From assembly GCA_948567375.1 (NCBI GenBank), contig OX419758.1, positions 2,237,001-2,301,000 on the forward strand: 64,000 nucleotides of DNA. Direction: 5' to 3'. Source of the stretch: Lunularia cruciata. Lineage: Eukaryota > Streptophyta > Marchantiopsida > Lunulariales > Lunulariaceae. This document shows, piece by piece, positions 10,501-62,751 of this stretch (its first letter is position 1; every line of letters begins with the position of its first letter). A program made the position numbers and the translations under genes. The notes beneath the pieces are model-generated. The model saw nothing but the letters and a program-made list of their open reading frames with translations, did no database searches and was not told the DNA's origin.

Positions 10501-10591
10501 AATAAGGGCGACCGCGTAGAAAACACGAAGGATGGGAGGACCCCATCAAGCCCAATAAAGCTAAAACCCAATAAAGTCGATCTGAGAAATC
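10501..10591 (-). mobile_element. Short retroposon insertion, 91 bp, 12-bp target duplication
   Basis: Flanked by perfect direct repeats 'tcagatatagag' (10489-10500 and 10592-10603). The corresponding site in the other segment copy (about 16462-16473, 'ggatatagag') is empty. On the minus strand the insert ends with 'ttttctacgcggtcgcc', the shared end of the family also found at 13998, 14907, 58403 and 62718. Confidence 0.8.
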
Positions 10592-11436
10592 TCAGATATA
10601 GAGGCGAACTTCAGTAGTTGCCTTTGGATGCATTTTCTCAAACTGTACTGTACATTTTGATTGGAATATGAGTAACATATGCACGGTGGAGAGTCACGGA
10701 GATGAAGAAGTAACGCTCAAGAACGGATTTCGAGGGGAGTCTGACGCGTAAGCGTTGTCTGAGTTGATTTTGAAGACGGGAGAAGTCCAGCTAGACACTT
10801 GTGGAGATTCACGTGTCAGAACTGAAGATTGCTTTCACTCAGGAATGGGTCCCAAGAACCTGCATGCAAGTGTTTATAGTTTTGCTGCACGACTGTCTCC
10901 AGAAGCGGATCGTCGAAGAACACCTTGTCTTATGGCCCCTCAGCCGTCGATGAACCGTAGATGAGACGGTTAACGGTTTCCCACCGTCAGATTTCAAAGC
11001 AGAGCCGGCGGGGTAGAGTTGGTCGGTATCAGAGTCTAAAAAACCAGTCAAGATTTCAGAAGGTTACGTTTCCCTGTACTACGTCCTGTAATCAGCTCGG
11101 GCCCTACTGTACTGAATTCTACAGCCATGTCCTGTCTTTCAATCGGGGTTCTGCTCCTGGAGTTGTTAAGAACAAGTTTGTTGGGCTCCAAACAGTCACC
11201 TCTACCATTCCAAAACCTATTTCTTGTAGGTGCTGCGCAGCTGCCGCTGGCGCATTTAGATCTCTCAGACTCTTTTGAAGGCTACGTTCTTAACGTGTTC
11301 ACTAATTCACATACGAGCGTCTAGTACATGTGCACTTATAGCACTTCGAGTTTGTGATTTTGGTGCGTTCCGCGTCTCTGTCGTCATCCTGTTTCTAAGT
11401 ATACAACGACAGAAGATTGTACCAATTGAGTTTCTC

Positions 11437-11511
11437 CTTCGTGTATATAGATCCCCTCCACTCCAATACCGAATTGCTATTGGAGTGGAGGGGATCGATA
11501 TACACGATGAA
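11437..11511. repeat. Inverted repeat with ~32-base arms
   Basis: Left arm 11437-11468 and right arm 11478-11511 around a 9-base loop; the core 'cccctccactccaata' is perfectly matched, with one substitution and a small gap further out. The left arm resembles 3696-3745 in the receptor-region fragment. The segment duplication ends at 11411, so this sequence joins there. Confidence 0.85.
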
Positions 11512-12692
11512 GTACACTCTGTGACTAGGTTTTGCCGTCTGTATAGAATGTCTTGATTTGTTGAAAGATTTCACCCTACTAGCTTCCAATCATATAACGA
11601 TTTAGCAGAGTATTCGATATACACCAGAGAGCAAAGGCTTATTCCGGAACAGCTTGAAGTAAATGAGCTGGAAAAACGTCACCGTGCATGAAATTACGAA
11701 GAGAACTTAACAGAAGACTTAGAGACTTGGTAGGACAGATGAAGCCCGGCTGCATGATGGGGTACAAATTGATAACAAGACTATTTGTTCCATCCACAAA
11801 CTGTGAAGAATTAGAATGGTTTTTGCCATGAGCTGTACATCGCCCGTTACTGGTTAACCAAGTGAGGAAAACACCACTGAAGTTCGGGTAAAGGGCAGAA
11901 AAGTCGGGTGAAGGGTTGGAAGTAGGATGGCTACTTACATTTCAGCACAAAAGATACCACAGAAAGATGCTCCAGAGGTGAGGTATGGCAATACATGACC
12001 TTGACAGTCGAATTACTTCGAGTTAGTCGAAGGACGGCAGATGCCTGAATCAGGCACCAGTGGTGGGGTTACAGACTTGCGAATCAAATCATAATCGTGT
12101 AACTAAGCTGCCTGGTGCAATGCATTCTTTGACGGATGGATATGACGACTTCCGTTTGATGGTGCTCCAGAACGAGGCTTCCTCCCGGTAGAAGACCCGC
12201 TACGTTGAGTTTCTTCAGCAAAATATTTCTGTTTGGAGGACATTTTGTCAGAATTACTGAGTTTGCTTGCCGCATTCAAGGGAGAGAATTTGCAGCATTT
12301 TCTGGAGGAAAAGCTTCCTAATTCAATACCACAATTGTTCTCGAAAAAAAAATCCGGCAATTATTTCAATTATTTCATGTTCTTGCAGTTGAAATTGAGG
12401 TGAAACAATCGATGAAGATGGGCTACAAGCGCGTTAGTATCCGAGACTCGATTTGGAGTTTCTACTCAACTCAGAGTAGTCTCTGTCTTTTCTGGAGATA
12501 TTTGTAACTGCAATTCGTGTCCTTCCGCATCTACTCTTAGCAGGTTGAACATCTTTGGTTTATTTGATTGACCATCTTTGGTACGGATGAGGTCTTGTAC
12601 TTCGACTACGAATTCACACTTTGTACCTCAAAAGCATTAGCAAAGGAGCAGAAAATCAAGTAATGTCAAACATCCTGATTCTTTAAGTGCAG
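11512..12692. other. Stretch without a recognised gene upstream of the dioxygenase remnant
   Basis: Short frames only. 12360-12692 should hold upstream exons of the dioxygenase-like gene if they survive; I could not identify them. The last bases (12682-12692, 'tttaagtgcag') form a good splice acceptor for the exon at 12693. Confidence 0.4.
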
Positions 12693-13506
12693 GGAAGAGA
12701 TATGGCGAGCAATGCTTGTGCTTTCGTTCATAAGCCACGCATATATATGGAGTGATGCAGCCCATCCTCCTCCCTCCAAACTACCGAGCAATTCTCAAAA
12801 CCCTGGAGTGAACATGCCAGAAGCTTGGACATGCCCGCCTGTTCTGGTGTACGCAACTTACAATCTCCTAAACTGGAGACGGATCGACCAGAGCAAACCT
12901 GTTGAGCTGGAAAACATAGTTTGCCTTCATAATTTCTATGGCGGTGTTGACGAAGAGTGATTCCGTTTGGTTCACATTGAGGTGAAGCCCCGGCGGTTGA
13001 TGGGATACTAGCAATCGCTTAGGCCCAGCTACTAGTATCCAAAAATTTAACTTCAGATGCCTGTAGCATACCTAAATTGTAAAATTGAAATCTAAATCTG
13101 ATATCCTCACTTTTTAGTGTTATTAGCTAATTTTGATATTGGTGTGATTTTCAATTGGTGTGATTGAGGACTTATTCTTCTGGACCACCTCCCTATTCAG
13201 GTAAAAGGGTGTCTGGAAATCATGACTTCTACCTTGAAACGGATGCAGCAAACTCTCAGTAGGATGGGTAAGAATTGCGATCCGTACATATACCACCACA
13301 GAGTCCGAGCGTTCATGTCTGGACGGAGAGATAATCCTGCTCTACCACATGGGATGCTGTATGAAGTGGTAGATATCGAGATGAAGCCCATGCGCAGTCC
13401 TCGATTATTCCGTGCTTTGATGCTGCATTGGGCATCATCCACAAAGATGGATGGCTCTCCTATTCCTCTTCCTACTATTTCTCCTACTCCTTCGAAAACC
13501 CGAATT
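12693..13506 (+). pseudogene. Indoleamine 2,3-dioxygenase-like pseudogene
   Basis: IDO is a heme enzyme that opens the indole ring of tryptophan to N-formylkynurenine. First exon (from 12693, after a 'tgcag' acceptor): EEIWRAMLVLSFISHAYIW, PPVLVYATYNLLNWRRID and ENIVCLHNFYGGVDEE, then TGA where the family has Trp (DE-W-F), then FRLVHIEV and a possible donor at 12982. Second exon (from 13201, after 'ttcag'): LKRMQQTLSRMGKNCDPYIY, HRVRAFMSGRRDNPALPHGM. After a +1 shift near 13380: HAQSSIIPCFDAALGII. These match the order and spacing of fungal and animal IDO. The C-terminal part with the proximal heme histidine and the GTGG loop is not found. One nonsense codon, one frameshift and the missing 3' end make it dead. 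It sits between the two copies of the segmental duplication. Confidence 0.8.
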
Positions 13507-13997
13507 AGTGGTCAACTTACATTACATTCCTCGGACATCTGCCGACATCGTTCTTCGATGAAATGGGTCAAATTCGCCGGCTCCGAAAGATCGAATTCGA
13601 CAATGCTCTATCTCATCCACCGCTTTCGCCCGGGGCTTCGGCACACAACGAATTCATCCGATCGATTTACTCCCTCGAAATTGCTGTTAGTTCCAAACCG
13701 ACTAACAAACGTTGGGATGGTTCCAACTCCATCGCGAGCGAAACATGATCACTGGAAAGAAATGAAACGAGTTCGCTGAAGCATCTCGGTTTATTGCCTT
13801 GCCCTCCATCCTTTAGACACGCGTCATAAGACAGTCTGCGAAATACTCAGGAATACTTGCAAGATAAACGAGTCCATGCTTCCACGAGCTCGGATATCAA
13901 CAAAGTGAAACTGTTCTCCATTACATCATTCTTGAACCTAAGCAAACGGGTAAAATCATATTGGAATGAGGGTTAGTACATTATATAATCCTAAGAA

Positions 13998-14469
13998 GTA
14001 AAAGAGCGACCTCGTAGAAAACACGAAGGATGGGAAGACCCCATCAAGATCAAGCTGTAAAAGGTGGGGACAAAATTGGGAAGATGGGAAGGCCCCATCA
14101 AGACCAAGCCCGTACAAAGGTGGGACAAAACAAGGAAAATGGGACTAAGTCCTAATAGAGTTCGATATGAAAAATCTACTATCTATAAATAACTAAATAG
14201 GGACTACACGCGAACTTTACTCTATATCACTTAAGATATCCTAGCTGTATAAAAAACGAGACGAAATAGAAAACTTAATTAAGTCTCGGTTAAAAAATCT
14301 ACCTTAACGCACCTAATATATCCGAGATATATAAATTATACGAACTATAAATAATTAAAACATCCCAAGAAATATCACCTCATGTGATTGTTCTACGAAG
14401 GATTGCACTAATCACTGCCTTTTGTAGAGCAGTGGACACGCTGTCTGAGAAGTTTAGTTGGTTATCTCA
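13998..14469 (-). mobile_element. Longest copy of the short retroposon family (472 bp)
   Basis: Flanked by 'aatcctaagaa' (13987-13997) and 'aatcctcagaa' (14470-14480), 10 of 11 matching. In copy 1 of the segment, sequence runs directly from 'aatcttcagaa' (8288-8298) into the downstream homology, so that site is empty. On the minus strand it ends 'ttttctacgaggtcgctctttt'. The body holds an internal near-repeat ('gatgggaagaccccatcaag' at 14029 and a variant at 14085) and an A/T-rich part (14190-14360). A similar body occurs at 63575-63945. Confidence 0.75.
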
Positions 14470-14575
14470 AATCCTCAGAAACTGATTAACTCAAATCCTT
14501 CTGTGATAGTACAGTAGTCAGGATAATTAGTTCCACAAACGTGTCGCGGGTCACAATACCCCGTAGCCTTTGCCA

Positions 14576-14661
14576 GCTAGGACAGCTCAACTGGGAGAGC
14601 CTCAGACTGAAGATTTTGATCTTCAGTCTGAGGCTCTGGTGTTCGAACCACTCCACAAGGC
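14576..14661 (+). pseudogene. tRNA-Phe-like pseudogene with an inverted expansion in the anticodon arm
   Basis: Starts 'gctaggacagctcaactggg' (A-box like) and ends with 'tggtgttcgaacca' (B-box like) as in tRNA-Phe. In the middle 14597-14614 and 14619-14636 are perfect 18-base inverted repeats around TTTG, so the sequence 'cagactgaagat' containing GAA appears once on each strand. This lengthens the tRNA by about 15 bases and would replace the anticodon arm by an 18-bp hairpin. Copy 1 (8398) lacks the expansion. Confidence 0.65.
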
Positions 14662-14906
14662 TCAAGGAGGTAGGACCGTTTCACGATTGGAGATTAAATA
14701 TTTATGCACATATTTCTCTATTATAAATGCGAATGAAAATGTCAAAATATACATATTAGTTGTACCTTTTAAATCATGACTCATACTTTTACCCGGCGAG
14801 TAAGTTTAATTCTAGCGGTTATATAGATTTTGTCGACTTGCGTTTTGACAAGTTATAACAGTTATATAAGAAGGTTCTCTTTCACCTTTAATCTTTAATG
14901 TATCTT

Positions 14907-14943
14907 TCCCATCCTTCGTTTTTTCTACGCTGTCTCTTTTTCG
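14907..14943 (+). mobile_element. Short retroposon insertion, 37 bp
   Basis: Flanked by 'tttaatgtatctt' (14894-14906) and 'tttaatgtgtctt' (14944-14956), 12 of 13 matching. Copy 1 of the segment (about 8696-8708) has a single 'atatatctta' there. The insert runs from 'tcccatccttcg' to 'tctacgctgtctctttttcg', the shared family end on the plus strand. Confidence 0.75.
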
Positions 14944-17451
14944 TTTAATGTGTCTTATTATATTGATAAGGAACCCTATTGTTTTAGTTCACACTATAAG
15001 ATTTTCAATTCAAATTATAAATTAAACCAGTATTTGAAATAAAATTTATTCATGTTAAATGTCATGATAGTAATCTGAATGGGTTAACTTTGTGATCATG
15101 AAGGTCTACTGAATCACGACATAGTTTAGTTTCTGATATAAGATCCATACGTAAGAGTCAACCCCACGAACCCATTCTTAAAATAATACTCAATATATGT
15201 CTTCTTCAAGTTGGTGCATCTAGGTCCTTTCTCTAGCTTTAGTGAGTGATACTGGTTTACTTACCAAGGGCAGAGGTACCAAGACGACAAGAAGTAATAA
15301 GCCAAAATGAAATAAAATAAAATAATCAAAAAAAAGAAAGAAAGAAACACATATCACCCAAACTTTCTCTTCGTCTTACTGGTTTGACAAGTGTTTTGTT
15401 TCATTGTCAATTTTATGGACTGTTTCACTGACTCGATTTAGTTTCCAAAATTAGTTTGGAAATCACGTCATGTGGCATGATTGATGAAAGGATTTGCTCC
15501 TTAGGAACACGACCTAAACACCAACAATAATAATTCAAAATAGAGAACACAATAATATTGAGCTAAACATTAACTTCACCTCTCCGGATGTGGAGGAAGG
15601 AGAATTTACTCCTGATAACGTTCAACCTGCCAGTAAGGTCTATGTTTCATATCCTTCTCAATACTCCTCATGTGGGAAAAAATACGTATAACGCGAAATT
15701 TTCATAAAGTTAAATGACTATATAAGTCTTATATTCATGGCATCTATCATATATATTCTTCTTATATAAGTTCATGTCCTAGTGGTATTCATGTGAGTCA
15801 ATTAATTCTTCCTCATTGCATTGCATTCTTTTGGATCTGGGTGCCGTCGTACATAGCCTAACTATCCTGACATCTACATTAACCACATCCCTAATCCTTC
15901 CATGAAAGATTGCGGCCGTTAGATTGAAGCGTCGATAGTAATTGCTTCAGAGTCATGCGGATGTCCGTAGCTAGAGTCTCACACTACTTCTCGAGAGGTT
16001 CCCGCCTGACGATGCCATGTCAGTTCCAGAGAGGCATGAGATGCCGATACCTTCAATATGCTCCTTTGCGCGCTGCCTTCAAGAAAGTGTGGATCTGTGC
16101 GCCTCAAGTTTCAGAAACATATTTCGTTGTGATATAAGTTCGTATCACCGAGTGGCACCAAAGGAATGTACTAACACGAGGGATTATATATAGCATGCAG
16201 TAGCTCGAGTTCATTTGGTTTGATACAAGGAAATTCTATAATCTCAACGTGCACAACCGGGGGCTTGAAACGCACTATCTCTTAAGCATGAAACTAAAAC
16301 GGATTTGAAAAAAATACTGAGGGGAATTCACCAATCTGCTGATCTCTTCTTGAATTTGAAAGTTTGCTCACGAGCCAGATCATGAATTACGATTGTACCT
16401 GGAGCACGTTGAACTTGGATAAAATCAAATCGATATTGCTAATTTTCCCCTGTGTTTACTGGATATAGAGGCGGACTTTCCATCTGAAATTAACTTTAAC
16501 CCTAATTTCTCAAACTTTATTGTACAAGAAGTTTAATTGCATTATGCGTAACATATCCATGGTGGAGAGTCACGGGGAGGAAGTAACGCTCAAGAACGGA
16601 TTCGAGGAGAGTCTGACGCGAGGCGTTGTCTCAGGTTATTTTGAGAGAGGGCAGAAATCCAGCTAGACAATTGTGGAGATCAGATGTCAGAACTGAAGAT
16701 TGCTTCCCACCTCAGGAATGGGTCCCAAGAACCGTCCATAAAAACACTTGCACGCCTGCATGCAAGTGTTTAGAGTTGTACCGCGAACTCGTCTCCAGAA
16801 GCGGATCGTCTAATGAAGATGAACACCCCACCCTATGGCCTCTCGTCCGTCGATGATCAGTAGTTTAGGCCTCGCTATCAACGGTTTTCGGCCGACTACG
16901 ACGTCGGGTTTCAAAACAGAGACGCGCGGGGTAGGAGCGGTCGGTATCAGAGTCTTAAGGGTTAATACCTCTACTGTTAAGATTTCAAAAGTTTACCGTT
17001 CCCTGTACTACGTACTGTAATCGACTCGGCCCCTGTTGTACTGAATTCTAAAGGACTACCTTCTTTGAATCGGGTTTTGCTCCTGGAGTTATTAAGAACA
17101 CGTTCCTTGGGCCCCAAACGCCGCCTCTACGAAAACCTATTTTCATTCAGGAAGCGTGACCAGAATGAATTGAAATGAGGCGTCGTTTACTTGGAGAGGT
17201 CATTTAATCCAGATCAGTGTTTCTTGTAGGTGATGCGCATGCTGCAGCTGCCGCTGGAGGATTTAGAGCTCTCAGACCCTCTTGAAGGCTACGTACTTAA
17301 CGTGTTCTTTAAGTGATATACGAACGTCTAGTAAATGCTCACTTACAGCACTTTGAGTTTGTGATTTTGGGTTCTTTCAGCGTCTCTGTTCTCATCCTGT
17401 TGCTAAGTATACAACGATAGAGCTTGAGTAGACTCATTATTCTGTGTCGAA

Positions 17452-18462
17452 ATGGGCGTTAAGCCGCCAACTTCTGGTGGTGCATTAAGCACAATGGCAG
17501 AAAGTAGGGGGTATCTCTCTCTCGGTTGCGCAAGAACGAAGACACATGCACGTGGTGATTTTATTATGTTGATGATAGCGTTGGTGCTGACATTAGCGCA
17601 AATACCTCGTACTGATGCACAATTGTTGCCGCCGGCCCCAGCTCCTGGGGTAGTAGCACCTGTTCGGGCACCGGCTCCTGGACCGATACCTGCAGTTTCT
17701 CCTGGGGTAGTTGCACCAGCCCCTCTTCCTCCGCAGACTCCATTGCAGCAATCGCAGCATGTCGTTCAGGCGTTGCGCGGCAACAACTTCACAGCTGTAG
17801 CGCAACTCATACAAACATACTTGCCGGTTTTGCGCCTCAACACGACGCTGTTTGTTCCCACGAATGCAGCATTGGCCGCAGTCCCTGCAGGCACACCCCT
17901 ACTGCCTATCATTTTATACCATGCAGCCGCGCCACAGTACACCTATTCGCAACTTCTGGCTCTTCCGGTAGGGGCTCGTCTGCCGACTAGCCTGGGAAAT
18001 AACTCCATTCTTGTGACGAACAATGCACCAGATAACTTTCAGGTTGACAATGTGCGCATTGTGGTAGCCGATGCGTGTTCATCGACTGTGTATAACTTGC
18101 AGGTCTCCTGTCATGGTGTGGAGAGAGTGCTGAATGCGAGTTTGTATGGAAATTCAACAGCAACAACAAACGCTCCTGCACCAGCGCCACTTGGTGTGCC
18201 GTCGCCGGTTGCTGGCCCTGTACCAACACTAGCTCCCTTCTTACCGCCAATTCCTTTCGTTGCACCGGTACCAAGCCCACCAGCTCCAGGTCCAGATGGA
18301 AGCGTAGTAGGTGAAACTCCACCTGCAGAAAGCCCCACTGACACTGATTCCAGTGCTTCCGGAGCAGCATCAATTCGTGAACTGATCAGTTACCCTACAT
18401 GTCGGCATCTGATATTTGTAGTTTATCTTGGAGTCGTGAGTGTTGGTTTAAGCATTTTCTGA
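17452..18462 (+). CDS. Fasciclin-like arabinogalactan protein
   Basis: Predicted cell-surface glycoprotein of the FLA family, acting in wall-matrix adhesion. Order of parts: signal peptide ending near TDAQ (residues 39-57), a Pro/Ala-rich AG-glycan region (58-97; PAPAPG, APAPGP, with GVVAP repeated), one FAS1 domain (about 103-233) with the H1 motif TTLFVPTNAAL, the conserved YH at 156-157 and an H2-like region VDNVRIVVADACSSTVYNLQ, a second Pro-rich region (about 240-305) and a hydrophobic tail (HLIFVVYLGVVSVGLSIF) preceded by small residues SASGAAS, the pattern for a GPI anchor. Several NxS/T sites are present. The first ATG gives 336 residues with 38 non-hydrophobic residues before the signal sequence; Met39 at 17566 gives a normal N-terminal signal peptide and is the more likely start. 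Single uninterrupted exon. Confidence 0.9.
   Translation: MGVKPPTSGGALSTMAESRGYLSLGCARTKTHARGDFIMLMIALVLTLAQIPRTDAQLLPPAPAPGVVAPVRAPAPGPIPAVSPGVVAPAPLPPQTPLQQSQHVVQALRGNNFTAVAQLIQTYLPVLRLNTTLFVPTNAALAAVPAGTPLLPIILYHAAAPQYTYSQLLALPVGARLPTSLGNNSILVTNNAPDNFQVDNVRIVVADACSSTVYNLQVSCHGVERVLNASLYGNSTATTNAPAPAPLGVPSPVAGPVPTLAPFLPPIPFVAPVPSPPAPGPDGSVVGETPPAESPTDTDSSASGAASIRELISYPTCRHLIFVVYLGVVSVGLSIF
17566..17568 (+). other. Preferred start codon of the fasciclin-like gene
   Basis: From this ATG the protein begins MLMIALVLTLAQIPRTDAQ, a compact signal peptide with a plausible cleavage after Ala-56 or Gln-57 (numbering from 17452). The upstream in-frame ATGs (17452, 17494) add a basic, polar leader that would bury the signal sequence. 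Confidence 0.6.
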
Positions 18463-19408
18463 GCCCTTTGGTCTCAGTGATTTTGATCCAGCTATCATAG
18501 TACGTACCATGGACAATTCCGTGTGAACATTCATTCATGCGATTGAAATTCTTGTCCAAACGCTTAATTCGTATGCATGTGGGCATGCACGTTTACAGTT
18601 GCATGCATATGATTTTCTTCGAATTCTATGATGCAGCGTCACGATTCTACGCATCTGTTCTATGTGCAGAATGTGCGTGACTTGCTCATGCATACAACCA
18701 ATCCAAATGTAAGAACATTGAGATGTAATCTTGGCGTTGAGCACTCAGACTTGGAACTCTTGTCTGCTTAGGGTTCTCAATTGACTCCAGGAACTTCCAA
18801 TGACTTGGCATCTCCTATGTTCAATTCTATCCATCATACCCATTCAAGAAATTGATGATGATTAAATCTAGTATGAGGCATGCGCTGATCTATCATGTAT
18901 ATTTTTTTATGGTTTCCATGCTTTGAATCTAGGTCTATGCATATGCCAACCGATATCGTTCGAATGTAAAATGACCTATTTCGCTGGAGATGTGAATGCT
19001 AGCTATCTAGATACAGTGAGTTGCCGGATTCTGTATCACATCAGTAGCTCGATTGGAAGTGACTACCGAAGGGAGAAACATTTGATTTGATTGGACCGAT
19101 CAGATACTTGTCAATTCAATCCATTACGCAGAAAATAGATAATGTTTAACATCATCATTAAATCCTACGTAATATGGATCAGATTGTGCATCTACTTATG
19201 GTTACGCGATATATATGCGCTATATCGAGATGATTTCAGTTTCGAAGTTACTGTTGAAGAGCTTGCAACATCCATGAACACGATACTGTGTAACTTTTTA
19301 GGTATTCCTCTGTCTCAACTGCACTAGTAGTGAATTATTTTACGTCTATTCGGCTCGTTGAGATATCGATTATCGGATGTTAATTAAGGTACTAGTAATA
19401 TTTGGAGT
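18463..19408. other. 3' flank of the fasciclin-like gene, no further gene seen
   Basis: Contains repeated 'gcatgc' and 'tgcatg' words around 18574-18610, which may be 3' UTR elements. No open frame is convincing and no consensus poly(A) signal close to the stop is clear. Confidence 0.4.
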
Positions 19409-19418
19409 ATATATACTC

Positions 19419-39769: not shown

Positions 39770-40740
39770 ACTCCTTGAGATCATAAGTTTAATTTCTCTA
39801 CACTTTTTCCACTATGAAGGTCCAAAATACATAGGCAAAACTTATTTTGTTCTCTCTTGAATTGAATGGAATTAAACAACATTACCCAATCAATTTCTTT
39901 GAAGAGCTCCACCTTCTTCTTGCCTTTCCTCTTGTCAGAACTTTCCTTTTTTTTCCTTTGGACTTGCTCCACTCAAATCATAGCAACTACTCTTGCCTCT
40001 TCTAATTCTATGAGTTGATCATCCTTGTCTTCTTTGCATCACCTCCTTGTATTTTTTTCAATTTCTTATGAATATTTTGGAAGGAAGGAAGATCAAAGTG
40101 AATAGATAAGGTAGACTCAGTATCATATACCAAATAAAATGGAGAATATCTAATGGAGTTTTCATGCTTATATTATATTCTCACAAAACCACATGAATCC
40201 TCTTGTCCTAATGATATTTAGCTCTCTCTATTTTTGCATCTTTGGCCAATATCATGCACAAGTTTTGATTGGTTTTCTTTGCTAAGCCATTGAAGTTTGG
40301 CTTATGGGATGTATTTATTCTATGTGTGGAAGAGAAATGTCTTAGCATGGCTATAATGATGCTTCCTATAAAATCTCTTCCTCTATAAGAAACCAACTCC
40401 AAAGGGTAACAAAACCCAATCATGATACATTCATAAAGAAATCTATGAATTTCATTTTCATTCTTGTCTGTTAATGGTCTGGCCTCAACCCATTTGGTAA
40501 GGTAATTAGTAACTACCATAATGCAATGATTGTTTCGTGGTGTTCTATTGAGAGGACCTACAAAGATAATTCTCCACTTCTCAAAAGCTATTAACAATGG
40601 GATTAATCTTAGAGGTGAAGTGGAGATAGACTTTATAGCAAAGGCTTGAAAAACATTTCAAGTTTTGTAATAATCAAGACAATCCTTGAAAATCCTTCTC
40701 CAATAGTACCATGCATCTAAAATCTTAAAAGTAGTCACTT
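39770..40740 (-). pseudogene. Ty3/gypsy integrase remnant (minus-strand element)
   Basis: Zinc-binding part near 40740-40620 (TTFKILDAWYYWRRIFKDC), then the core FEKWRIIFVGPLNRTPRNN, VTNYLTKWVEARPL, SYRGRDFIGS, and a C-terminal part DWVMLFNSIQFKREQNKFC near 39850. The Asp of 'DYLTKW' is Asn here. Stops between pieces. Closely related to the plus-strand integrase at 33.1-33.9 kb. Confidence 0.8.
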
Positions 40741-41415: not shown

Positions 41416-42199
41416 CTACCTATCAAGTTTAGCAAGAATTTGAGCAATAACAAAGGATTGCTTGAGCTCCTCAAAAGTTTTGAGAGTCTCCTTGTCCTCC
41501 CAAATCACCATGTACTCTAAGCCCTTCTTTAGGTAGATGGTCAATGCATAAGCCTTGTTGGAAAATGAGAAGATGAACCCCCTATAGAATGCAACCAACC
41601 CCAAGAATTGATGTAACTTTGTGAAGCTTGAAGAGAATGGAAGATCTAAAATTTTCCTTACCTTCTCAAGATTAACTACTATTTCATCTTGAGAAATAAT
41701 GTGCCCCAAAAATAGAACTTTTTCACAACCAAAAATGCACTTCTCTAGGTTGAGTGATGCATTTGATTCATCTAATAGTTGCAAGACCTTGATGAGGTAC
41801 TCAAAATGCTTTTCTTTGCTCCTATAGATACAAAAGTTACCAACAAAATCTCTCATAATTTTCCAATGGAAGGTTCAAATACCTAGTTCATGAATCATTG
41901 GAATGTGATTGGAATATGCAAAGCCCAAAGAACATAACCTTGAAAATATAAGTTCCCCAAGGTGTGGTGAATATGGTGAGTTATTGATGCTTTGGTGTAA
42001 TCTTGATTTAGTTATACCCATTATAACCATCTCAAAATTTGTACCTCTCATGACCTACAACCTCCTTCAAGATCTCATCAATGAATGGCAAAGGGTAATA
42101 ACCCTTCTTAGTAACAAAGTTGAACTTTTTGTAATCCATATATACCTAAAGCTTGCCATTATTTTTCTTCATAATCACAATTGGAGACACCTATTTTGA
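41416..42199 (-). pseudogene. Ty3/gypsy reverse transcriptase remnant
   Basis: Order on the minus strand: SPIVIMKKNNGKL, MDYKKFNFVTKKGYYPLPFI, DEILKEVVGHERYKF, FTTPWGTYIFKVMFFGL, (catalytic YxDD region mutated) then NLEKCIFGCEKVLFLGHIIS, FTKLHQFLGLVAFYRGFI and KTFEELKQSF. These are the successive RT blocks and thumb/tether of gypsy Pol. Numerous stops. Confidence 0.85.
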
Positions 42200-53060: not shown

Positions 53061-55979
53061 TAGTGCATCGAGGCTATAGGGTAGCATTCGGACAGGATAT
53101 AACTTACTTCCTGCATAATAATCGGAACTGCAGTAAAACAAAATTTCACTCTCAATCAACTGTCCCGGACAGCAACTCTAGATTCGCGCATACCTGCAAG
53201 CAATCCCGATTAAGCTGCCGTGAAGGTCTGTATCGGCATCATCATGGTCGTTAGTGTTATTATCGCCCTACGATTGCGCTAAGCTCCAATCTCGTTAAAA
53301 TCCAGCGCAAACTGTGGAATTAGTTAGAGGATTTCTAAAATAAAAAGTTTCCGACACCTGAATGACCGGAAGAAATTTTGATTCTTTAGCGTTACATGCC
53401 ATAATACGCAACTGTTCCAAAATGGTTAACATCCAAAATACAAGAAAGAGGTTCTCAATTTAAAAGGCAAGGCGAAACCAACCGAACAATGTCCGAAATG
53501 TATACACCTAAATGTGTTTTCTGCGCGGTCGCCTTTGCAAATATCTGGAGTGTCCTAATTTCAAATCAGACTTTTAGGATGTCTCTTGGACACCATGGCG
53601 TGGCCGTGTTCAGATACTAACTTAACCAAACATGGTAAAACTTGTCAAACTTGACCACTCAAACATGTAAGATTAATCAGGTTGAAAGGGATATCGTGAA
53701 GTCAAACAGTAAGTCTGACAATGGGAAATCACTAGGAAGTCGCAAACGCCTCCCGAGCCCCATTTTGGTGTGTGCATGATAGGATGATACGATGTATAGC
53801 ATATACAGACATGGAATGTTCGTCCTAACTTGCTCCAAAGAAGCGTGAGAAGCGCCAAAACGAGTAGACAATTTACCCTTCAGACGAAGACTGATAAAGG
53901 CTTACACGCGTATTTTACTCTCACACGCAGATTTGCTCCTTGAATCCTGCTGCTTTTCCTTTTTGAGAAATAGTAGTTCTAGATACACTAATAGGCAACA
54001 ACGGTACGTGCTAAGTTTTGCCCTGCTTGCAGGAGTACTGTAGTTTGCTGTCGCTGGGTACTTGGTTCAGGCTGTATTTATCATGGTGTATTTTATCGTG
54101 TGTATGTTACCCGTCGGTAACTTTGAGGACGATCCCCTCGTTGTCAACGTGCCTGCATCGCTACAAAGTACTATGATCGTTTCCAATCTCGATGTAAAAT
54201 GGATGAGATGGAATTTTGGAACTCGTTTGCACAGAAAAGCACAGAATCGGGTGTATTTGACACAAGGCTACGTAGAGATCCCTGTTCGCTGAGGAGCTCC
54301 CTTCTCTAAATCCGGTTGCTCAGCACGTGAATTGAGTGGAAAGGATCAAGAACGCGAGTAACGGAGCTGCAGAAACTAAGCTCCACGGCGAACAGGGATT
54401 TGGGAAACTAAGCTTTAGGGTCAAGTGTCATCGCCATCCTCGTTAACGTAAGCACTAGTGCTGATGACTGTATGCAGATGTAGACTGCGCACTTCAGAAG
54501 TCGACTCAATGTCAATGCCAGTTATGTCGCTCCTGAAAGATAATGAATCAAACTTAAATCCGTCTGAATTGACAAATTCCAACTGAGTTAAGGACAACTC
54601 TGAGATTAGATTGGTTAAAAAGTGTCAATGTTTGCTAACACTTCAACCTTCACATATAGCCGCACCACCTGCGACCACAGGATTACCAGAGCTTTTCCCT
54701 ACGGACACTATCCTCTACCGTACATATCATCAGGCAGGGAGCACTTTAGCTGATTATGTTATGATCTGAGTATACCGCCCGGAAGTTTTGACGCGGGAGT
54801 AACCATAGCTTCAGCGATATCAAAACGACGAAACAAATAAAAAACATGTGATATTTTTAGTGAAGTCTTGATTTCCGAAAGGCCAAAACATACTTGAAGA
54901 GAAAGATTTCAGAGACGAAGTTATAGTTAGCTGATTATCATCCACGAGAACAACGGGTGGAAAGGACCAAATGCTTAAGTTTTACTTCACTGCGCCATGT
55001 TTCTCTGACATTAACGTGAGAATGCTGAGGCTCAAATTCAGGTAGACCTTCTGAAAAGTGTTCACAAAGGTCTAGGTGGAAGAATAAACATTTGATGGCG
55101 AGCGTTGGAATGACCACATACTAACAGGTTTTGAGCTTTCAGCAGATAATACATGGTGTTTCTCTGGTGTTATGAAATTTCATTCGAGTCGGATTTTCAT
55201 CGTCATCTCGCTTGTCTGTGCGGTTGACGGAATAGATAACAATAACATAATCACTCAGTGTGCAAAAGTGTTCCTAAGAGTTTGTCATATGCAGATGCCA
55301 AGCCATGATTAAGATCCAACGTGGATTGGATGTTAAAAGAATGTTGATGAGAGTTTATCACACGGCAACTATGTTGTTCAAATGTACTTGGGTTGACAGT
55401 CTTATAGTGTACTACATGTCCACGTAATGTACCCGGAAGTACGCACTACTAAGTACATCAGCACTCGGCGTTTACGTTCAGGATGCTACATGGATGTGTG
55501 TTAAAATATGCACAGAACTGTCGTCTTGAGTGACTCTGTCCAGCATTGGCAGAATATGATTATATGCAGTTCTAAATACTAACGCTTTCCCTCCTGTTTG
55601 TCTCCAGATTTGCTTACATCGTCATGTGTTACAAATGAAGTCTCTAGATACCAGACCCAAGGCATCGTGATCCTGTAGAACTACATTATCCAACTTCTTT
55701 CTCCGCAACCATCACTGAAATCGATGTACAATTCGAGACATTCATGTATCAGACATCATAACAGTTACAATCTGAACGGAGAGTTGCTGGAGGTGAACTC
55801 CACACAGGGAAGATGCGTATATTCACAATCAACTTCAACAAGTTCATAGAAAAGCTTTATTATTAGGTGCAACTTTCGGGCAGTGGAACTCCGATGTCCA
55901 CTGTACGAAGTTTCGGCCTGGATAATAAATAGGTGCCATGAGGACACAATTTCTATCGATTTAAAGATTCCTGATCTAG
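53061..55979. other. Intergenic stretch
   Basis: No supported gene. At 53524-53539 'gcgcggtcgccttt' resembles the end of the short retroposon family, without clear flanking repeats. An inverted pair 'gatccctgttcgc' (54280) / 'gcgaacaggga' (54386) encloses about 95 bases. The plus-strand frame 54062-54292 is open but unrecognised. Confidence 0.4.
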
Positions 55980-56618
55980 CTATTGAGCAAGTAGATCCGG
56001 GGGACAAGAAGTCTCAAAGCACAGAAATATGCATGAGAGTATTCTGCAGGTAGCTGCAATCAATGCCTTTTCCTCGATCGAATTTCCAGTCTCTGCAAGC
56101 AAGGACAAAAGGCTTAGTACTGGTCCTGCCATCGCAACCTGCGACAACACACGCAAAAATGGCAAAACAAAGTATTCTTCAGTTTCAGGACTTGAGAGCC
56201 TTGGCACCGGCTGAAGGAACTTACATAGATGTAGAAGGTAACCCTTGATGACGCCATTAACGGCAACAGCGATGTTGTCTTCCGCAGTTACGTAGATCCT
56301 AACCGTTGCGCTCAACGGGACCTTGATGTCAACGCTGTGGACGACATCTCCGATGATACAGGTGATCTTCCACGTCAATCCTAGAAGTGATCCCACCAGA
56401 CCAGTGATGGTATAGAGAACACTCTTGACGGCATGAGCAGCGACATTGATCACCCCGGCCACATCAAGTTGTATCCCTAAATCAGCCTTCAGCACGATGT
56501 CTACTGGGTAATCAGTATCGTTGGTGCACTGAGACTGGTAAGAGGAAGCGGCAACTAGAGTTGCGGTGGCAAGTATGGCCAAGCAAGAGAAAAAGATAAT
56601 GGTCTTGGTCTTCATCAT
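55980..56618 (-). CDS. Small secreted protein of unknown family (two-exon model)
   Basis: Begins MMKTKTIIFFSCLAILATAT at the ATG of 56618, a clear signal peptide, cut near AASS. The mature part has CTNDTDYPVDIVLKADLGI, then a hydrophobic, Val/Gly/Ile-rich body (GLVGSLLGLTWKI, VNGVIKGYLLHL) with two visible cysteines. The frame stays open to 55980 but probably crosses an intron: a strong donor gtaagt begins at 56224 (after YLLHL), and the broken paralogue at 61.1 kb keeps gtaagt at the same codon and phase. Acceptors at 56139 or 56093 are possible; the first gives about 37 more residues, the second an immediate stop. Function unknown; the extracellular role is inferred from the signal peptide. 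Confidence 0.7.
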   Translation of the reverse strand: MMKTKTIIFFSCLAILATATLVAASSYQSQCTNDTDYPVDIVLKADLGIQLDVAGVINVAAHAVKSVLYTITGLVGSLLGLTWKITCIIGDVVHSVDIKVPLSATVRIYVTAEDNIAVAVNGVIKGYLLHLCKFLQPVPRLSSPETEEYFVLPFLRVLSQVAMAGPVLSLLSLLAETGNSIEEKALIAATCRILSCIFLCFETSCPPDLLAQ

Positions 56619-56748
56619 GTTGGTGGCTGGAAGGAACTGCAATGAGGAAGGCGAGGATCTGAGTGCTGGAACTGCTGAGGAGTGTGATCTAGCTTGCAGA
56701 CCAGATGCTGAAGGAAGAAGGCAGTGTTCACCTTAGGAAACAGGGGGG

Positions 56749-56756
56749 TATTTATA
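56749..56756 (-). promoter_or_regulatory. TATA box of the small secreted protein gene
   Basis: The plus-strand 'tatttata' reads TATAAATA on the minus strand in the context 'agtataaatacccc'. It lies 131 bases before the ATG at 56618, leaving a leader of roughly 100 bases. Confidence 0.6.
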
Positions 56757-57210
56757 CTCTCCGTAGTCGCTCAATTCACTGCACTCGCCTCATATCGTTC
56801 GAGTGTACCTTACCCAGACTTTGTGACTCACAATTTACTGCAGCAACCAAATTTATCAGGAGAACATTCCTAGTGTTAGATGTCGTCACAGCACTTGACA
56901 CGTGCACTGGATGCATGGGCACTAGATCGATCTGTTATTTGACACTGGAAGTATGGGTGTCGTTCATCTCTTGACATATAAACCATTCTCTGAATACCTG
57001 GGGGGAGGGAGAGCGCGAGGAATCAGTTTAGAAACAGTCTGATGTGCTTCAAACCGAAACATATGGAAAATATATGTACGCATGTATTTTCATAATAAAG
57101 GGGTGGACTACGTACGGTAGCCCTGTGCACTTGCTCTAATCTACTGCCCAAGAATGGAATGATGAACCCAGACAATGTAATAGCAATCTACCATTACAGT
57201 AGTCAGAAAA

Positions 57211-57267
57211 GTAAAATACATAAAGGTCAACAACAATACAGTTGATGTTGACCTTTATGTATTTTAC
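57211..57267. repeat. Perfect inverted repeat, 21-base arms
   Basis: 57211-57231 ('gtaaaatacataaaggtcaa' + c) and 57247-57267 are exact reverse complements around a 15-base loop. It may be a small MITE or a hairpin-RNA source; no transcription signal was seen. Confidence 0.9.
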
Positions 57268-57312
57268 GTTTCGTAAGTAGTTGAAGTTTTAGCTGAGTTC
57301 TGTACACCACAG

Positions 57313-57413
57313 GGTGTTCACCGGAGATCTTATTGTGCGCCATTGAACACCTTGTTTCGTTTCGTCTCTGAAGCGACGAAACTCTGATCATCTCCAAGAC
57401 TTAGGTCTTGGAG
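57313..57413. repeat. Three short hairpins in succession
   Basis: 'ggtgttca' (57313) with 'tgaacacc' (57344); 'gtttcgtc' (57359) with 'gacgaaac' (57375); 'ctccaagac' (57392) with 'gtcttggag' (57405). Each is perfect over 8-9 bases within 100 bases. Confidence 0.6.
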
Positions 57414-58402
57414 CTATCAGAAGCACACTTCAAACGCAGCCAAGTAATTTAACCATACAACAGCCTCTACGACTTTACAAAGCAGGAAACCGTCATGTCA
57501 GATTAGTCGATTACCAGATCACCTCCTGTGCATATAACTCTAGAATATCCAAGATACCTTAAGGATGAATGGTAAAGCCAGTTCTAACTTTATTCAAGAG
57601 ACATGTCCTTGCAGAGACTATCTCCACGAAGCCGAGTGCAATGAGCGGGTAGCTGAAAAATTTGATTGAGGACGGGGTGGTTACTATGATAATATATCAG
57701 GCATTAGTCCTGTATATATCCTGCACATGGTTAAATTCCAAAAGGTTGTCTGAGCCCTAATATGAAGTTTAAGAGGTCTAAATAACAGTTGTGTCGTGAG
57801 CCAGTTCTCTCAGCAATTACCATAATTACAGTCTTTCAGCATGTAATAAAAAATTAATCATCGCACGTGTAATAGGGGTGTGACCTTGAGCCCTGCACCT
57901 TTTGACAGTGTTTGACGCTCCTTGTCAACCATGCTTCAGACGACTATAGAACGATACTCTTGCTTTTTGCGAGGAGATTCCCGGAAGTTGTGATTCACAT
58001 CTGACAAATTAAGTTCACATTAAAGGTCATTGAGACAATCGAATTTTCGTTCTGTCAGATGAGAGTTCGTCCTTCCTTTTAACCTTTCGAAAACTAGGTT
58101 GTCGTCAAAAGACTATCCCCTGTCATATAACCTTCTGCCTCCTACTCCGATGACTACCTGAGATGTGTCCCTCCAACGGCCGCAACGAAGAATAAGTGTC
58201 AACAAAATAAAATTTCAGAGAAGTAGTGCTTAAAGAGGTATAAGGTGGACGCAGGTTATTTAAACACCTCGAGCAATTCCGGAGCAGAGTGCTTCGCAAT
58301 TCAAAAGCTGTAAAGCTCGGTTATCGATGGAAACCCATCCTGGTTGCCCATGGAGTTATAACGGAGGACGATTCCACTTTATTCTCATTTCTCATTTGGC
58401 AT
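57414..58402. other. Intergenic stretch
   Basis: No open frame, repeat or signal that I can support. Confidence 0.4.
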
Positions 58403-58460
58403 TTCTCATTCTCATTCTTCCCATCCTTCATTTTTCCTACGCGGTCGCCTTTTTCTTTAT
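58403..58460 (+). mobile_element. Short retroposon insertion, 58 bp
   Basis: Flanked by 'tctcatttggcat' (58390-58402) and 'tttcatttggcat' (58461-58473), 12 of 13 matching. Contains 'cccatccttc' and ends 'cctacgcggtcgccttttt' + ctttat, the shared family end. Confidence 0.75.
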
Positions 58461-58792
58461 TTTCATTTGGCATGTCCAACCAAGTTCCTACGACATGTCC
58501 AACAAATAATCTCGTATTTCGAACATGAGCTCCCTGGATCAACAACGACATCTATATATCGCACCAGAGCATGATGCATCGTATTCGAAAGCCTGTAAGT
58601 TTCAGTTATCAATGAGGAGCCAGTGCGATTCCTTCTTGTTCTATCTTGACATCCAACCAAGTTTCTGCGCAATGTCAAGGAAGGAATCTCGCATATCATC
58701 ATGGCCCCTCCGAATAAAACAGTCATGACCTCTCTCAATAAACAGAGATGGCACATGCATGCCCACGACAATAAACCTGGAACTTTTGGGCT

Positions 58793-58801
58793 CTATAAAT
58801 A
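58793..58801 (+). promoter_or_regulatory. TATA-like sequence without an assigned gene
   Basis: 'ctataaata' in the context 'gggctctataaatacagcag' looks like a plant core promoter. No downstream open frame is convincing. Confidence 0.2.
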
Positions 58802-58865
58802 CAGCAGCTCTATTAAAGACGACATGTGGCTCGTTTTGATTCGGCGGAAGGTTATCTTATCTTAA

Positions 58866-58980
58866 ATTGGATATTAGGTCCATTGTATCTACTTTGTCTC
58901 ACCCATTACGCGTGACGGGGTCTTCCCATCCCTCATGATTTCTACGCGTTTCGCACTTTTTCTGTCGATATTAAAACAAA
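58866..58980 (+). mobile_element. Diverged copy of the short retroposon family
   Basis: 'gtctcacccattacg … ggggtcttcccatccctcat … tttctacgcgtttcgcactttttc' follows the same order as the 472-bp copy read on its minus strand. A 7-base 'gatatta' occurs on both sides (58869 and 58968) but is too short to be sure of a target duplication. Confidence 0.5.
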
Positions 58981-59069
58981 ATGACCCAACAGCCGCCGAA
59001 GATGGGTTCGTTCGCTTTGTTACCCTATTCATCTCAGGCAGTGTGATTGTCGATCAGATTCAATTTTAT

Positions 59070-59185
59070 TTTAAAAATATTTTTGAAATATTAACTATAT
59101 ATTAAAAATAATTGTATCTCATCTAATATAATGTTTTAATTAATTTATTATTTATTATTTAATAACAATAATATATACTTGAATG
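59070..59185. other. A/T-rich tract
   Basis: Almost pure A/T, mainly 'aaaatattt' and 'tttattatttatt' words. Similar in composition to 63640-63930, which follows a copy of the retroposon family. Confidence 0.5.
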
Positions 59186-60055
59186 AACTGGTACCCCAAC
59201 GAAATTTTACCGAAACAACCCTGTCTCCCAGGAAATTTCAAGCGAAGCAACCTGTCACACTCGCAGTTTCTTGCGAAGCAACGCTGTCTCTGACACATCC
59301 TTTTTAAGAATATGTTAAAACTTCCTAATGTGACCGTTGGTTGCAGTTATCCTCCGAGTTCCTTAAGCAACCTTTATCTGCGCCATCCGGTTGAGCTCTT
59401 TAATCATGAGATGCTAGGCGAGCGGAAACACATGTACTGCCTTGCAGTTCGAGACGGGGAATTCACAGGCAGCATGTCCGTATTTAGCTTTCATGTCTTC
59501 GAGGTTGAGTCCGGAACGAGGCAAAAGAGCAGCTTATGAATGTAGCCAATGAATCCTGGACAACCAGAAAGTCAACCAAATTAACATTGCTAAGAATAGT
59601 AACGGGAACTGGTAGCCTAAGTCACCCCACTGCTCGGGCTTTTACGTATGAAGCTTGAGTTCCAAGCTGCAATCGTGCAGGTTGACACCGAAATTGAGTA
59701 CGGTATCACCGGCCTCAAATAGCTCTCTGTGTAAGAAACACGAGACTCAGTGTGAGGTAATTTGGAATCTGCATGACAGGAGTGGTGTGTCGAACATCTA
59801 CTCGACGATGTGCGAAAGACGAGTCTGTAGATACTGGAATAAACATGGATTCGTTCGCAGTTAATCCGAAGCTGGGGAGTCTACACATCGTCTTTTACCT
59901 TGTTTCAAGCTTGAGACCAGCACACAGATAGATTTAAGACTGGTTTTAATTTCCCCCATGGATTAGCATGGCTCTCCTGATGGCAATATTCCAGATCCAA
60001 AAGCATGGAGGAAGCTCACACCTGGTGCTGGTGCAAACACAGTAGTTCCTCACGA
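59186..60055. other. Intergenic stretch
   Basis: Plus-strand frames 59312-59539 and 59655-59864 are open but show no motif or signal that marks them as genes. Confidence 0.3.
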
Positions 60056-60379
60056 TCAGATGGGCTGTGGAGAGAGCTGACAGCTTTGCTTTCTTCTAAA
60101 AAGTTTGACGATCTTCTCCCGTAATTTGTGCTCTGCATGCCATGCCACTTTCTGTCTCAACGATTCATGTCGCTGAGTCAGATTTTCGAAACATCCGTGT
60201 CCACAGACTAAATGAACGAGATCAAAGGACAAACTTAAAATAGCAGAAAATGCTATGAAGAAACACGCGCACCGAGTCTGCTGTTGCAAAGTAAGTCTAT
60301 GATCTTCCGTGAAGAAAGGTAGCACCCCCTGTAAATAATTTCGTACAGATGCTGGGTTGGCGCAATTAACAACGACCAA
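60056..60379 (-). CDS. Unrecognised open frame with one hydrophobic segment
   Basis: 107 open codons. A hydrophobic stretch CACFFIAFSAILSLSFDLV in the middle could be a membrane helix, followed by a basic C-terminus (KLREKIVKLFRRKQS). The first codon is not an ATG, so if real this is an internal or terminal exon. No family recognised. Confidence 0.2.
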   Translation of the reverse strand: MVVVNCANPASVRNYLQGVLPFFTEDHRLTLQQQTRCACFFIAFSAILSLSFDLVHLVCGHGCFENLTQRHESLRQKVAWHAEHKLREKIVKLFRRKQSCQLSPQPI

Positions 60380-61092
60380 AATTAGCTGGAAATGTCAAAG
60401 TTTCGAAGTATGGATACCCCCGTCTTCTTCCGAGGGCTAAGACACATATTTCCATTCAGATAGAGCAGCAGAGTATTACACTTCTGATATCACCACTCCA
60501 AAACTAGCTCCTCGATTACCAAGATGAATGCCAGTACAACCGTAACAGCTACAGCTTACCAGTCTGAGTGCAGCCACGAGGCTGGAGTACCCGGTGGACA
60601 GTTAGGGGGTTAAGGTGTTTCAATTTTAGTGTTTACCAGGAACCAGGCACCAGGCACCGGAAGAATCTGTAAATTTTTGTCTGGGCAAACTATTTTCATG
60701 GAGTCGAGCACCCTTGTTCATTAAACATTAAATATTTATGGGTTATGTTTTCCAAGACCAGTAAATATTTTATGGGGGATGTAGTGTTACCGGATATCCA
60801 CAAAACTTAATTGCATCGGGAACCTGCACACCACCCGCAAAGAGAGAAAAATTTCAAAAACTAAAACATGGTTTTTAGTTTCCGGGCAATGCAGCTCATT
60901 ATGTTAGTTGAAAGTTAATTACACTCTGATATGTAATCTAATTTACACATCCATAAATGATTATTAATAAACGGTCAGACATCAAAATTGAAACCCCATG
61001 TACCTATACACAACCCATACCCAAATTTATAGATACTCATAAAAGTTTCTACGGACCTTGAAGCTCTGCATGTTGAAAAATTCCACATCCTA
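60380..61092. other. Intergenic stretch
   Basis: Contains a short repeat 'accaggcaccaggcaccgg' at about 60643. No gene seen. The start and signal peptide of the following pseudogene are absent here. Confidence 0.4.
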
Positions 61093-61410
61093 AAACTGAA
61101 ATCCCCTATTGTGCTGAAGGCTGATGTTGGAATTAAATTTGATGTGGCCGGAGTGATCAAGGTCGCTGCTCATGACGTTGTGAACATGGCTACGCCGTGA
61201 CTAGTCTGGTTATATCTGTCCTCGGATTGACACCAAAGATTACTTGGATCATTGGAGCTATCGTTCACAGCATTGACCCCAAGTTTGGGGTTGAACTTAG
61301 CGGGAAAGATCTACGCAACTGTCGGAAACGATACCGTTGTTGCTGTTGACGGTGTCATCAAGGCTTACCTTCTGCATCACAGTAAGTTCGTCGATTCAAA
61401 CTGTTGAGGC
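61093..61410 (+). pseudogene. Broken paralogue of the small secreted protein
   Basis: Reads SPIVLKADVGIKFDVAGVIK, VAAHDVVNMA, then after a shift LVISVLGLTPKITWIIGAIV, HSIDPKFGVE, and after another shift KIYATVGNDTVVAVDGVIKA plus YLLHH, aligned residue by residue with the gene at 56618 (…VLKADLGIQLDVAGVINVAA…, …VNGVIKGYLLHL). At least two frameshifts; no signal peptide exon is found upstream. The donor gtaagt at 61382 is kept at the same position. Confidence 0.8.
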
Positions 61411-62717
61411 TGTGGGGAATGTGAAACCACAGCCTCAACTGCAGTTTCATTGGCTTTCTTAAGATTTGATCTCTAATTGCTTGTCAGTACCATGGACATT
61501 TCAGGCAATCGTGGTTGTAGATGTATCTAACTGAAGATGTGGGCTGCTTGTGTTTACCAGAGAAGCGCCACTAGGTACTGCGGAAATAACTGAGGCGATT
61601 CCATATTGTTGTAAATGTTCAGCCGTGTAGAACAATGATTTCTCGGCGTCATGATATATTCACTTGTGCACCCACCGTACATGTATAAGAACCGTAAATC
61701 GTGCACTAGACAGTTGTTTACACTTGGAGAAGCATCTTATGCAATCCGATTAATGTGCATTTAAGTCAATGAAGTCTTCGTATGAGTAGATTTTGAGATC
61801 TCAATTGCTTGCACAAATATGTCGAGTAGACCCTAAGTTATCGGAACCTTGACGGTGACTTATATGACTTGAGAAAATTCTGGGAGGAGGGTGGAAGGGT
61901 TCAAAATGGATTCTATACTTTTACATCGTTTGAGATTGAAAGTAAACATGGTATTCAAAATAGATGCGTAGTAGAATCTTACTTCGAATTGTTCATTCTC
62001 TGGTTCAGTTCTTCTTCACCCCAGCAAGATACGGAATCCAAAGCGTAATATAAATCATGTTTCTCCCAGTTGGAAAGTAATACCACAACGGAGAAAAAAT
62101 TTCAAAAGATTGTCACTGGATTGTTTGGGGAGTCTTAAGTGCATCAAAGATGGGACGAGGTTTAAGTTACCTCACATCCCTAGTGGACCGTCATTGTGAT
62201 TCAGGGCTCACAACACCATCTCGGTGATATCTGAGTGCCTCGTTTATCGCTACAAACAAATTGGTACCTGCAGCTCTTCTTTCAACGTCGACACGCAAAG
62301 GCTATGACCCGGACCGTAGGCTTGGATTTAGCCATTATGTAAAGAAGTTAAAATTTAAGGCAGAGCTACCAAACGACAAAATTTAAGCTCGAACACTATT
62401 CTTGGACAGTAAACGTTGTTGCAAGTTGACATTTAGTTCCGCCATTGATATGATCAAATTGGAGTGACCTACCTAGCAGACTTCATTTATCTCTGACCTG
62501 CAAGTTCCATCTTGAGAAAGTTATCTTCACCAATGCAGTTACCTTCAAGTGTGTGAACGGTTTCTAACTACATCAATAAAACCAAATAAAATTCAGATAC
62601 GAGCATCAGCTGCAGCATCATTTAGAAGAAAAACTATTGCTCTGCTGAATCTAGTCAAATTTGGGACAAATTAATGAAATTTATGATCAATCTTGACAAC
62701 CCACTAAGAAACGTCAA
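61411..62717. other. Intergenic stretch
   Basis: No supported gene or repeat. Confidence 0.4.
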
Positions 62718-62751
62718 ACTTCATTCTTCCTACGCGGTCGCCTTTTTCTAT
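62718..62751 (+). mobile_element. Shortest insertion of the retroposon family, 34 bp
   Basis: Perfect direct repeats 'gaaacgtcaa' at 62708-62717 and 62752-62761 flank an insert that contains 'cctacgcggtcgccttttt' near its end, followed by ctat. Confidence 0.8.

Follow-up and report, generated by a model that had tools for sequence, protein, structure and literature searches.

What are the short inserts, each bordered by direct repeats, that recur in a stretch of the Lunularia cruciata genome, and what produced them? The stretch, referred to here as the window, comprises 64,000 nucleotides of the forward strand of contig OX419758.1 (positions 2,237,001 to 2,301,000), and the initial annotation had found in it five inserts sharing one end, which it took for products of target-primed reverse transcription of a small RNA. 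Our analysis supports target-primed reverse transcription as the origin of a family with one shared 3′ end, differing 5′ ends, target duplications and strong 5′ truncation, and sets aside the small-RNA template. A 3.7-kb long interspersed nuclear element (LINE) with its own reverse transcriptase (RT) has this 3′ end too, from which we conclude, on sequence grounds, that the inserts are very probably extremely 5′-truncated copies of this non-long-terminal-repeat (non-LTR) retrotransposon, whose predicted protein resembles that of R2.

Five inserts with target duplications

All five inserts are present, and direct repeats of 11–14 bp border every one of them (5/5), with one mismatch in four. The end described as common to them, the 19-mer CTACGCGGTCGCCTTTTTC, is exact in the inserts at 58403 and 62718 (positions 58437–58455 and 62730–62748) and occurs as a minus-strand form with three mismatches at 10501–10519; the inserts at 13998 and 14907 have ends that diverge further, detected as 28–47 bp matches to other inserts. 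The 19-mer was absent from 100 of 100 shuffles of the window. The point at which the repeats are cut decides the insert lengths: those of 91, 472 and 37 bp stood as first reported, while the insert given as 58 bp measures about 57 bp and that given as 34 bp measures 30–34 bp.

The 91-bp copy at 10501..10591 lies on the minus strand, with its 3′ end, a near variant of the 19-mer, at 10501, and is enclosed by TCAGATATAGAG at 10489–10500 and again at 10592–10603 (12/12 identical). The 472-bp copy at 13998..14469, also on the minus strand, contains the 3′ untranslated region (UTR) and the 3′ end of the open reading frame (ORF) region, aligning in several pieces to parts of element positions 3470–3733 (of 3735); its 3′ UTR is tandemly duplicated internally, in units of about 54 bp that form an array at 14018–14144, and its target duplication reads AATCCTAAGAA at 13987 and AATCCTCAGAA at 14470 (10/11). 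On the plus strand, the 37-bp copy at 14907..14943 has a decayed 3′ end and a duplication of TTTAATGTATCTT at 14894 and TTTAATGTGTCTT at 14944 (12/13), and the copy of about 57 bp at 58403..58459, which carries the exact 19-mer and is 100% identical to the LINE 3′ end over 40 bp, is flanked by TTCTCATTTGGCAT at 58389 and TTTTCATTTGGCAT at 58460 (13/14). The copy of 30–34 bp at 62718..62751 (plus strand) also ends in the exact 19-mer, between CTAAGAAACGTCAA at 62704 and CTATGAAACGTCAA at 62748 (13/14), and its final 4 bases may be part of the duplication.

As first reported, three of the five inserts have an unoccupied counterpart within the window, at 16274–16672 for the insert at 10501, at 8140–8506 for that at 13998 and at 8567–8843 for that at 14907. 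These empty sites are available because old segmental duplications of 69–91% identity (8140–8843 against 13839–15100, and 10303–10800 against 16274–16672) supply insert-free partners; the inserts at 58403 and 62718 have no insert-free paralogous stretch in the window. Two further degraded copies, which lay outside the initial annotation, were found at 58866..58962 (plus strand, about 97 bp; 76% over 100 bp, E 3.5e-11) and at 63568..63658 (minus strand, about 91 bp; 73% over 98 bp, E 2.5e-10), and inspection of their flanks revealed no convincing duplication.

A LINE with the same 3′ end

The autonomous LINE that the initial annotation had suggested looking for exists, at a length of 3.7 kb and with an RVT_1 domain. 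Over about 3.7 kb, the three long copies L048, L049 and L050 are 93–95% identical, and an 11-bp duplication at both ends of L049 sets the element at about 3.73 kb. It has a single ORF of about 1100 codons and a 3′ UTR of about 86 nt that ends in the 19-mer. The reading frame of L049 is broken by two stops, and its pieces were searched separately: the first matched RVT_1 in Pfam (E 6.4e-10), and its best relatives of solved structure were R2 retrotransposon proteins (E 2.3e-5). For the C-terminal piece of L048, an R2 protein was the top of eight listed PDB matches (residues 943–1034); this match is weak, follows the RT match in the expected order on the same R2 protein, covers a Cys-His-Cys knuckle and includes RADLYLVRDDQVIVVDVVV, which by our reading by eye may represent a PD-(D/E)xK-like pattern. 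The listed matches of the L049 C-terminal piece were glutaminases alone, none better than 0.063. Three pieces covering the L049 ORF gave no AP-like (apurinic/apyrimidinic, exo_endo_phos) endonuclease at E values up to 1, and an N-terminal zf-C2H2_4 match (E 0.082) fell under its cut-off; the translation shows C-x2-C and H residues.

Genome-wide, 78 copies of the ORF were scored of 13,832 candidates. Among these 78, 24 copies with 94–96% identity to L049 have no stop in the matched 557 residues and are given with an open frame of 1100 amino acids, a value to be read with caution, as other entries give 1100 alongside internal stops and no such copy was read. The family appears rather young and is possibly still active. 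Tandem 3′ UTR units of about 101 bp were also seen in another copy, L035, and together with those of the copy at 13998 they are suggestive of repeated template use or slippage.

Truncated copies across the genome

Searching the 565.8 Mb assembly (74 contigs) for the exact 19-mer gave 568 matches, and none for the same sequence written backwards. The initial annotation had proposed that copies throughout the genome should be flanked by direct repeats, and this mostly held in the first 85 of the 568 places in contig order (76 on C1 and 9 on C2), a non-random sample in which the common 3′ end is a result of selection by the exact 19-mer and alignments were limited to 1200 bp. A direct repeat scoring at least 8 was found at the insert edges in 41 of the first 65 sites, a score that 1.5% of 1300 mismatched flank pairings reached; with an added placement rule, 47 of the 85 sites have a target duplication. 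Among the 42 sites scoring at least 9, duplications have a median of 12 bp (range 9–21) and start 0–10 bases past the 19-mer, in support of a 3′ end common to the copies. The insertions are scattered over many contigs.

The terminal run of T that had been noted as a mark of the family proved to be CTTTTTC, with which the element ends, and not a poly(T) or poly(A) tail; in 33 of the 42 well-defined copies, 1–10 extra bases separate it from the duplication. A preference for C lies 3–4 bases upstream of the duplication, and the enrichment at 3 bases (24/42, background 0.205, P 2e-7) comes from a post hoc motif test.

Truncation is severe, with 64 of the 85 aligned lengths at or below 130 bp, 16 at 131–999 bp and 5 at 1000 bp or more (median 96 bp). 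Stubs shorter than 130 bp in such numbers would be easily overlooked by repeat annotation.

A hairpin at the stop codon and palindromic 5′ ends

Where do the short copies begin? A hairpin, GGGGC-TTA-GCCCC, overlaps the TAG stop codon of the ORF, and its 5′ base is where the LINE sequence starts in 14 of the 47 copies with a duplication (aligned lengths of 95–102 bp). This cluster, 14 of the 64 copies no longer than 130 bp, exceeds a uniform spread (P 1.4e-4, for an interval picked post hoc). An RNA hairpin blocking the enzyme would leave ends at its 3′ base (79–88 bp), whereas folding of the complementary DNA (cDNA) after both arms had been copied would leave them at its 5′ base.

The bases upstream of the hairpin are also informative. 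In 5 of the 14 hairpin-start copies, GGGG is preceded by ACAT, which is complementary to the ATGT following GCCCC, and in a sixth, L009, AAAAT upstream corresponds to the copy's own ATTTT downstream. ACAT is absent from all 26 other hairpin-bearing copies of the sample (Fisher P 0.003). Across the genome, the hairpin word GGGGCTTAGCCCCATGTTA occurs 2373 times, of which 1754 are preceded by the LINE-like TATT; the 619 others include 120 with ACAT, 82 with TAACAT and none with the permuted control CAAT, a single permutation and thus a small control, the chance expectation being 619/64, or about 10, if T always precedes GGGG. Among the matches listed, ACAT places lie on at least 6 contigs and the TAACAT subset on at least 8; the counts are of places, and treating each as an independent insertion is an assumption.

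We considered whether ACAT could mark a variant or subfamily of the LINE itself. This was ruled out by its absence from the 26 other copies and by the presence of AGACT within 6 bases upstream at only 2 places genome-wide.

The ACAT counts (120 against 0 in the control) and the starts at the hairpin 5′ base point to snap-back of the cDNA. We propose that the LINE protein would nick the target, prime on the 3′ end of the RNA and synthesise cDNA, and that synthesis would mostly halt within about 130 nt, the 5′ base of the hairpin being one frequent stop. Once both arms had been copied, the cDNA 3′ end could fold onto itself and leave the template; self-extension of the folded cDNA would then yield the palindromic TAACAT end, and the 5′ junction may arise when this end pairs with the target. 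For R2 proteins in human cells, one described class of 5′ junctions is produced by snap-back, the cDNA serving as template for synthesis from its own 3′ end (PMC11371274; this and the other publications cited are represented by excerpts), and annealing-formed LINE 5′ junctions with microhomology or extra bases have also been described (PMC4245944, in the part available).

Two rival accounts bear on these ends. In one, truncation is already fixed on the RNA, and reverse transcription acts on decay fragments of the LINE messenger RNA whose 5′ ends lie at the stop-codon hairpin. Such intermediates could accumulate at the stop codon and the hairpin 5′ base, where the cluster lies, but the palindromic TAACAT ends of 82 copies would not be predicted, and the other 5′ ends are spread across the 3′ UTR, so that we regard this account as unlikely. 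In the other, ACAT comes from the target by microhomology alone, without self-copying of the cDNA, and it is true that ACAT lies partly or wholly inside the duplication in 4 of the 5 sampled ACAT copies (L007, L020, L033 and L058). However, GGGG is preceded in the LINE by ATT and not by CAT, which should leave an unextended cDNA unable to pair with ACAT in the target, and in L072 the TAACAT sits outside the duplication; this origin appears improbable as well.

Snap-back of the cDNA at the hairpin is part of a broader proposal, which we hold tentatively and with slightly less than even confidence: that an abundant R2-like LINE, of the type with a restriction-like endonuclease (RLE), in a plant-lineage genome uses its stop-codon hairpin as a chain terminator through snap-back, and that its 3′-UTR-only stubs, some of them palindromic, would form a natural record of the process. 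How LINE cDNA synthesis terminates and how 5′ junctions form are long-open questions, and if the proposal is correct, a single hairpin with about a hundred palindromic ends would make snap-back testable in nature. Truncation and snap-back are undesirable side products of gene insertion by R2 proteins, an application under development.

Some further features of the 5′ ends and of the hairpin word were noted. Aligned lengths of 110–119 bp form a looser second group (n=11), about 15–23 nt upstream of the hairpin, and in some of these copies the duplication places the true start elsewhere. The ends of ribosome footprints are expected 16–17 nt before a stop codon. With the main cluster about 7 nt ahead of the stop and aligned lengths of 103–109 bp absent from the sample, a footprint was rejected as its source. 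The hairpin word is four times commoner than the 3′ 19-mer, an excess that we suspect reflects CpG decay in the 19-mer together with the tandem 3′ UTR units of some copies.

Weighing the evidence

Several observations weigh against truncated copies of an R2-like LINE with snap-back ends, in whole or in part. Selection by the exact 3′ 19-mer would overlook copies that end differently at the 3′ end, 38 of the 85 sampled copies gave no duplication under the score and placement rule applied, and among the three longest copies L048 and L050 gave none. On the side of the protein, the match of the L048 C-terminal piece to the endonuclease region of the R2 protein is weak when taken alone (E 0.52), and no Pfam family matched the endonuclease region. 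The last 100 nt of L048 fold no better than shuffled sequences (z -0.47), and we therefore claim no 3′ UTR structure beyond the local hairpin. As for the 5′ ends, 9 of the 14 hairpin-start copies lack ACAT, 3 of the 120 ACAT places were read (L007, L020 and L072) and the others counted, and 6 of the 85 aligned lengths fall at 79–88 bp, near the hairpin 3′ base; the contrast of 14 ends at the 5′ base with these 6 favours cDNA folding and is suggestive only.

The short copies could also form a non-autonomous family resembling short interspersed nuclear elements (SINEs), in which the 3′-UTR-only copies of about 96 bp are mobilised by the LINE and trace back to a short transcribed founder that began with the hairpin. 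The 5′-end cluster described above would fit such a founder, and the recurrent ACAT or TAACAT could represent its 5′ end. Against this, a SINE has a common 5′ end, and the 5′ ends of the 85-site sample are variable, the copies outside the cluster ending at many positions between about 19 and 130 bp or at greater lengths. The 14 hairpin-start copies themselves vary before GGGG (ATT, CAT, CTT, TCT, TTT, GTT and AAAT), and several of them share these bases with the target duplication. In L009, the upstream AAAAT matches the ATTTT beyond the hairpin, as self-copying predicts, although this is a single case and ATTTT occurs elsewhere too. A SINE would also have an RNA polymerase III-type head (transfer RNA (tRNA), 5S or 7SL); the window gave no Rfam match, and 20 sampled loci contained one tRNA, which lies some 270 bp upstream of the copy (L009:3084-3156). 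We consider a SINE-like origin quite unlikely. A family of DNA transposons, miniature inverted-repeat transposable elements or solo LTRs would also share terminal sequence and have target duplications, but this is refuted to the point of being negligible by a common end at one side only, by duplications that vary from 9 to 21 bp and by the LINE-type reverse transcriptase of the long copies.

Relationship to known LINEs

The reading that we prefer, truncated copies of an R2-like LINE, invites comparison with described elements. LINEs of the plant L1 and RTE clades encode an AP-like endonuclease, and their 3′ ends are usually poly(A) or short repeats. The Lunularia element, in contrast, has an R2-like protein, no AP-like domain that we could find, and the end CTTTTTC. 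The likeness to plant L1 and RTE LINEs lies in 5′ truncation and target duplications, as described for Celine in the available part of PMC11288735, which assigns plant LINEs to these two clades.

With R2, R2NS-1_SMed and R2NS-1_CSi, the element shares a single ORF, frequent 5′ truncation and the protein itself, an R2 protein being its nearest RT relative of solved structure and its top C-terminal match; R2-likeness here means these best solved-structure matches rather than a position on an RT tree. It differs in its plant-lineage host, those elements being from animals, in its dispersed insertions with duplications of around 12 bp, and in its short 3′ UTR, stop-codon hairpin and palindromic 5′ ends. 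R2-clade elements insert into 28S ribosomal DNA (rDNA), whereas copies of this element lie on at least 8 large contigs, and 20 of the 85 sampled loci gave no ribosomal RNA match at gathering score. The R2NS families provide a precedent for insertion outside rDNA, according to excerpts of PMC5035012 and PMC7650587.

Among other RLE LINEs, HERO is a clade with many non-specific families (PMC4640811, as excerpted), a resemblance drawn from the published description and not from sequence comparison. Utopia, as presented in the available text of the same publication, comprises RLE-type LINEs with 5′-truncated copies that target U2 small nuclear RNA genes, reptile families giving 20-bp duplications; neither the window nor the 20 loci searched among the 85 gave a U2 match at gathering score. 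The RLE group of Utopia is known, from that text, in Amoebozoa, SAR and Opisthokonta. In the snap-back junctions of the PRINT system, as far as the excerpt of PMC11371274 describes them, the cDNA 3′ end likewise seemingly primes on the cDNA before the 5′ junction forms; here, snap-back is inferred from natural insertions and is concentrated at one hairpin.

What sets the Lunularia copies apart from ordinary LINE stubs is the probable host lineage and the hairpin with its palindromic ends. Among the papers listed from one open-access library, none was seen to describe an RLE or R2-like LINE from a land plant, with Repbase and subscription papers outside the search; the group seems undescribed from land plants, and we make no claim to a first report. 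If the assignment is correct, R2-like LINEs extend to the plant lineage, which bears on their age and on their spread by vertical loss or horizontal transfer.

Other features of the window and genome

The exact 18S pattern was found at two places in the genome, L069 (C8:50576524 region) and L068 (C2:36886880 region), one of the two scoring 1531 bits and the other 335 bits. As these are the only two exact places, the rDNA array may be collapsed in the assembly or missing from it. The genome also matches the SAM domain of LEAFY (E 1.9e-35), which was found in 0 of 14 control genomes. LEAFY is not known outside plants and their algal relatives, and this match, the eukaryotic 18S gene and a fasciclin-domain protein in the window indicate a host that is a land plant or an alga close to land plants.

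Within the window, 42 bases at 14596–14637 are 90% identical to their own reverse complement, and the surrounding stretch appears tRNA-like by eye; ARAGORN reported no tRNA in the window. Open pieces at 40208–40657 and 41416–41874 on the minus strand resemble Ty3-type pol by eye, with no Pfam match at 0.001. On the plus strand, 17428–18462 encodes a protein that is rich in proline and contains a fasciclin domain (E 1.9e-6).

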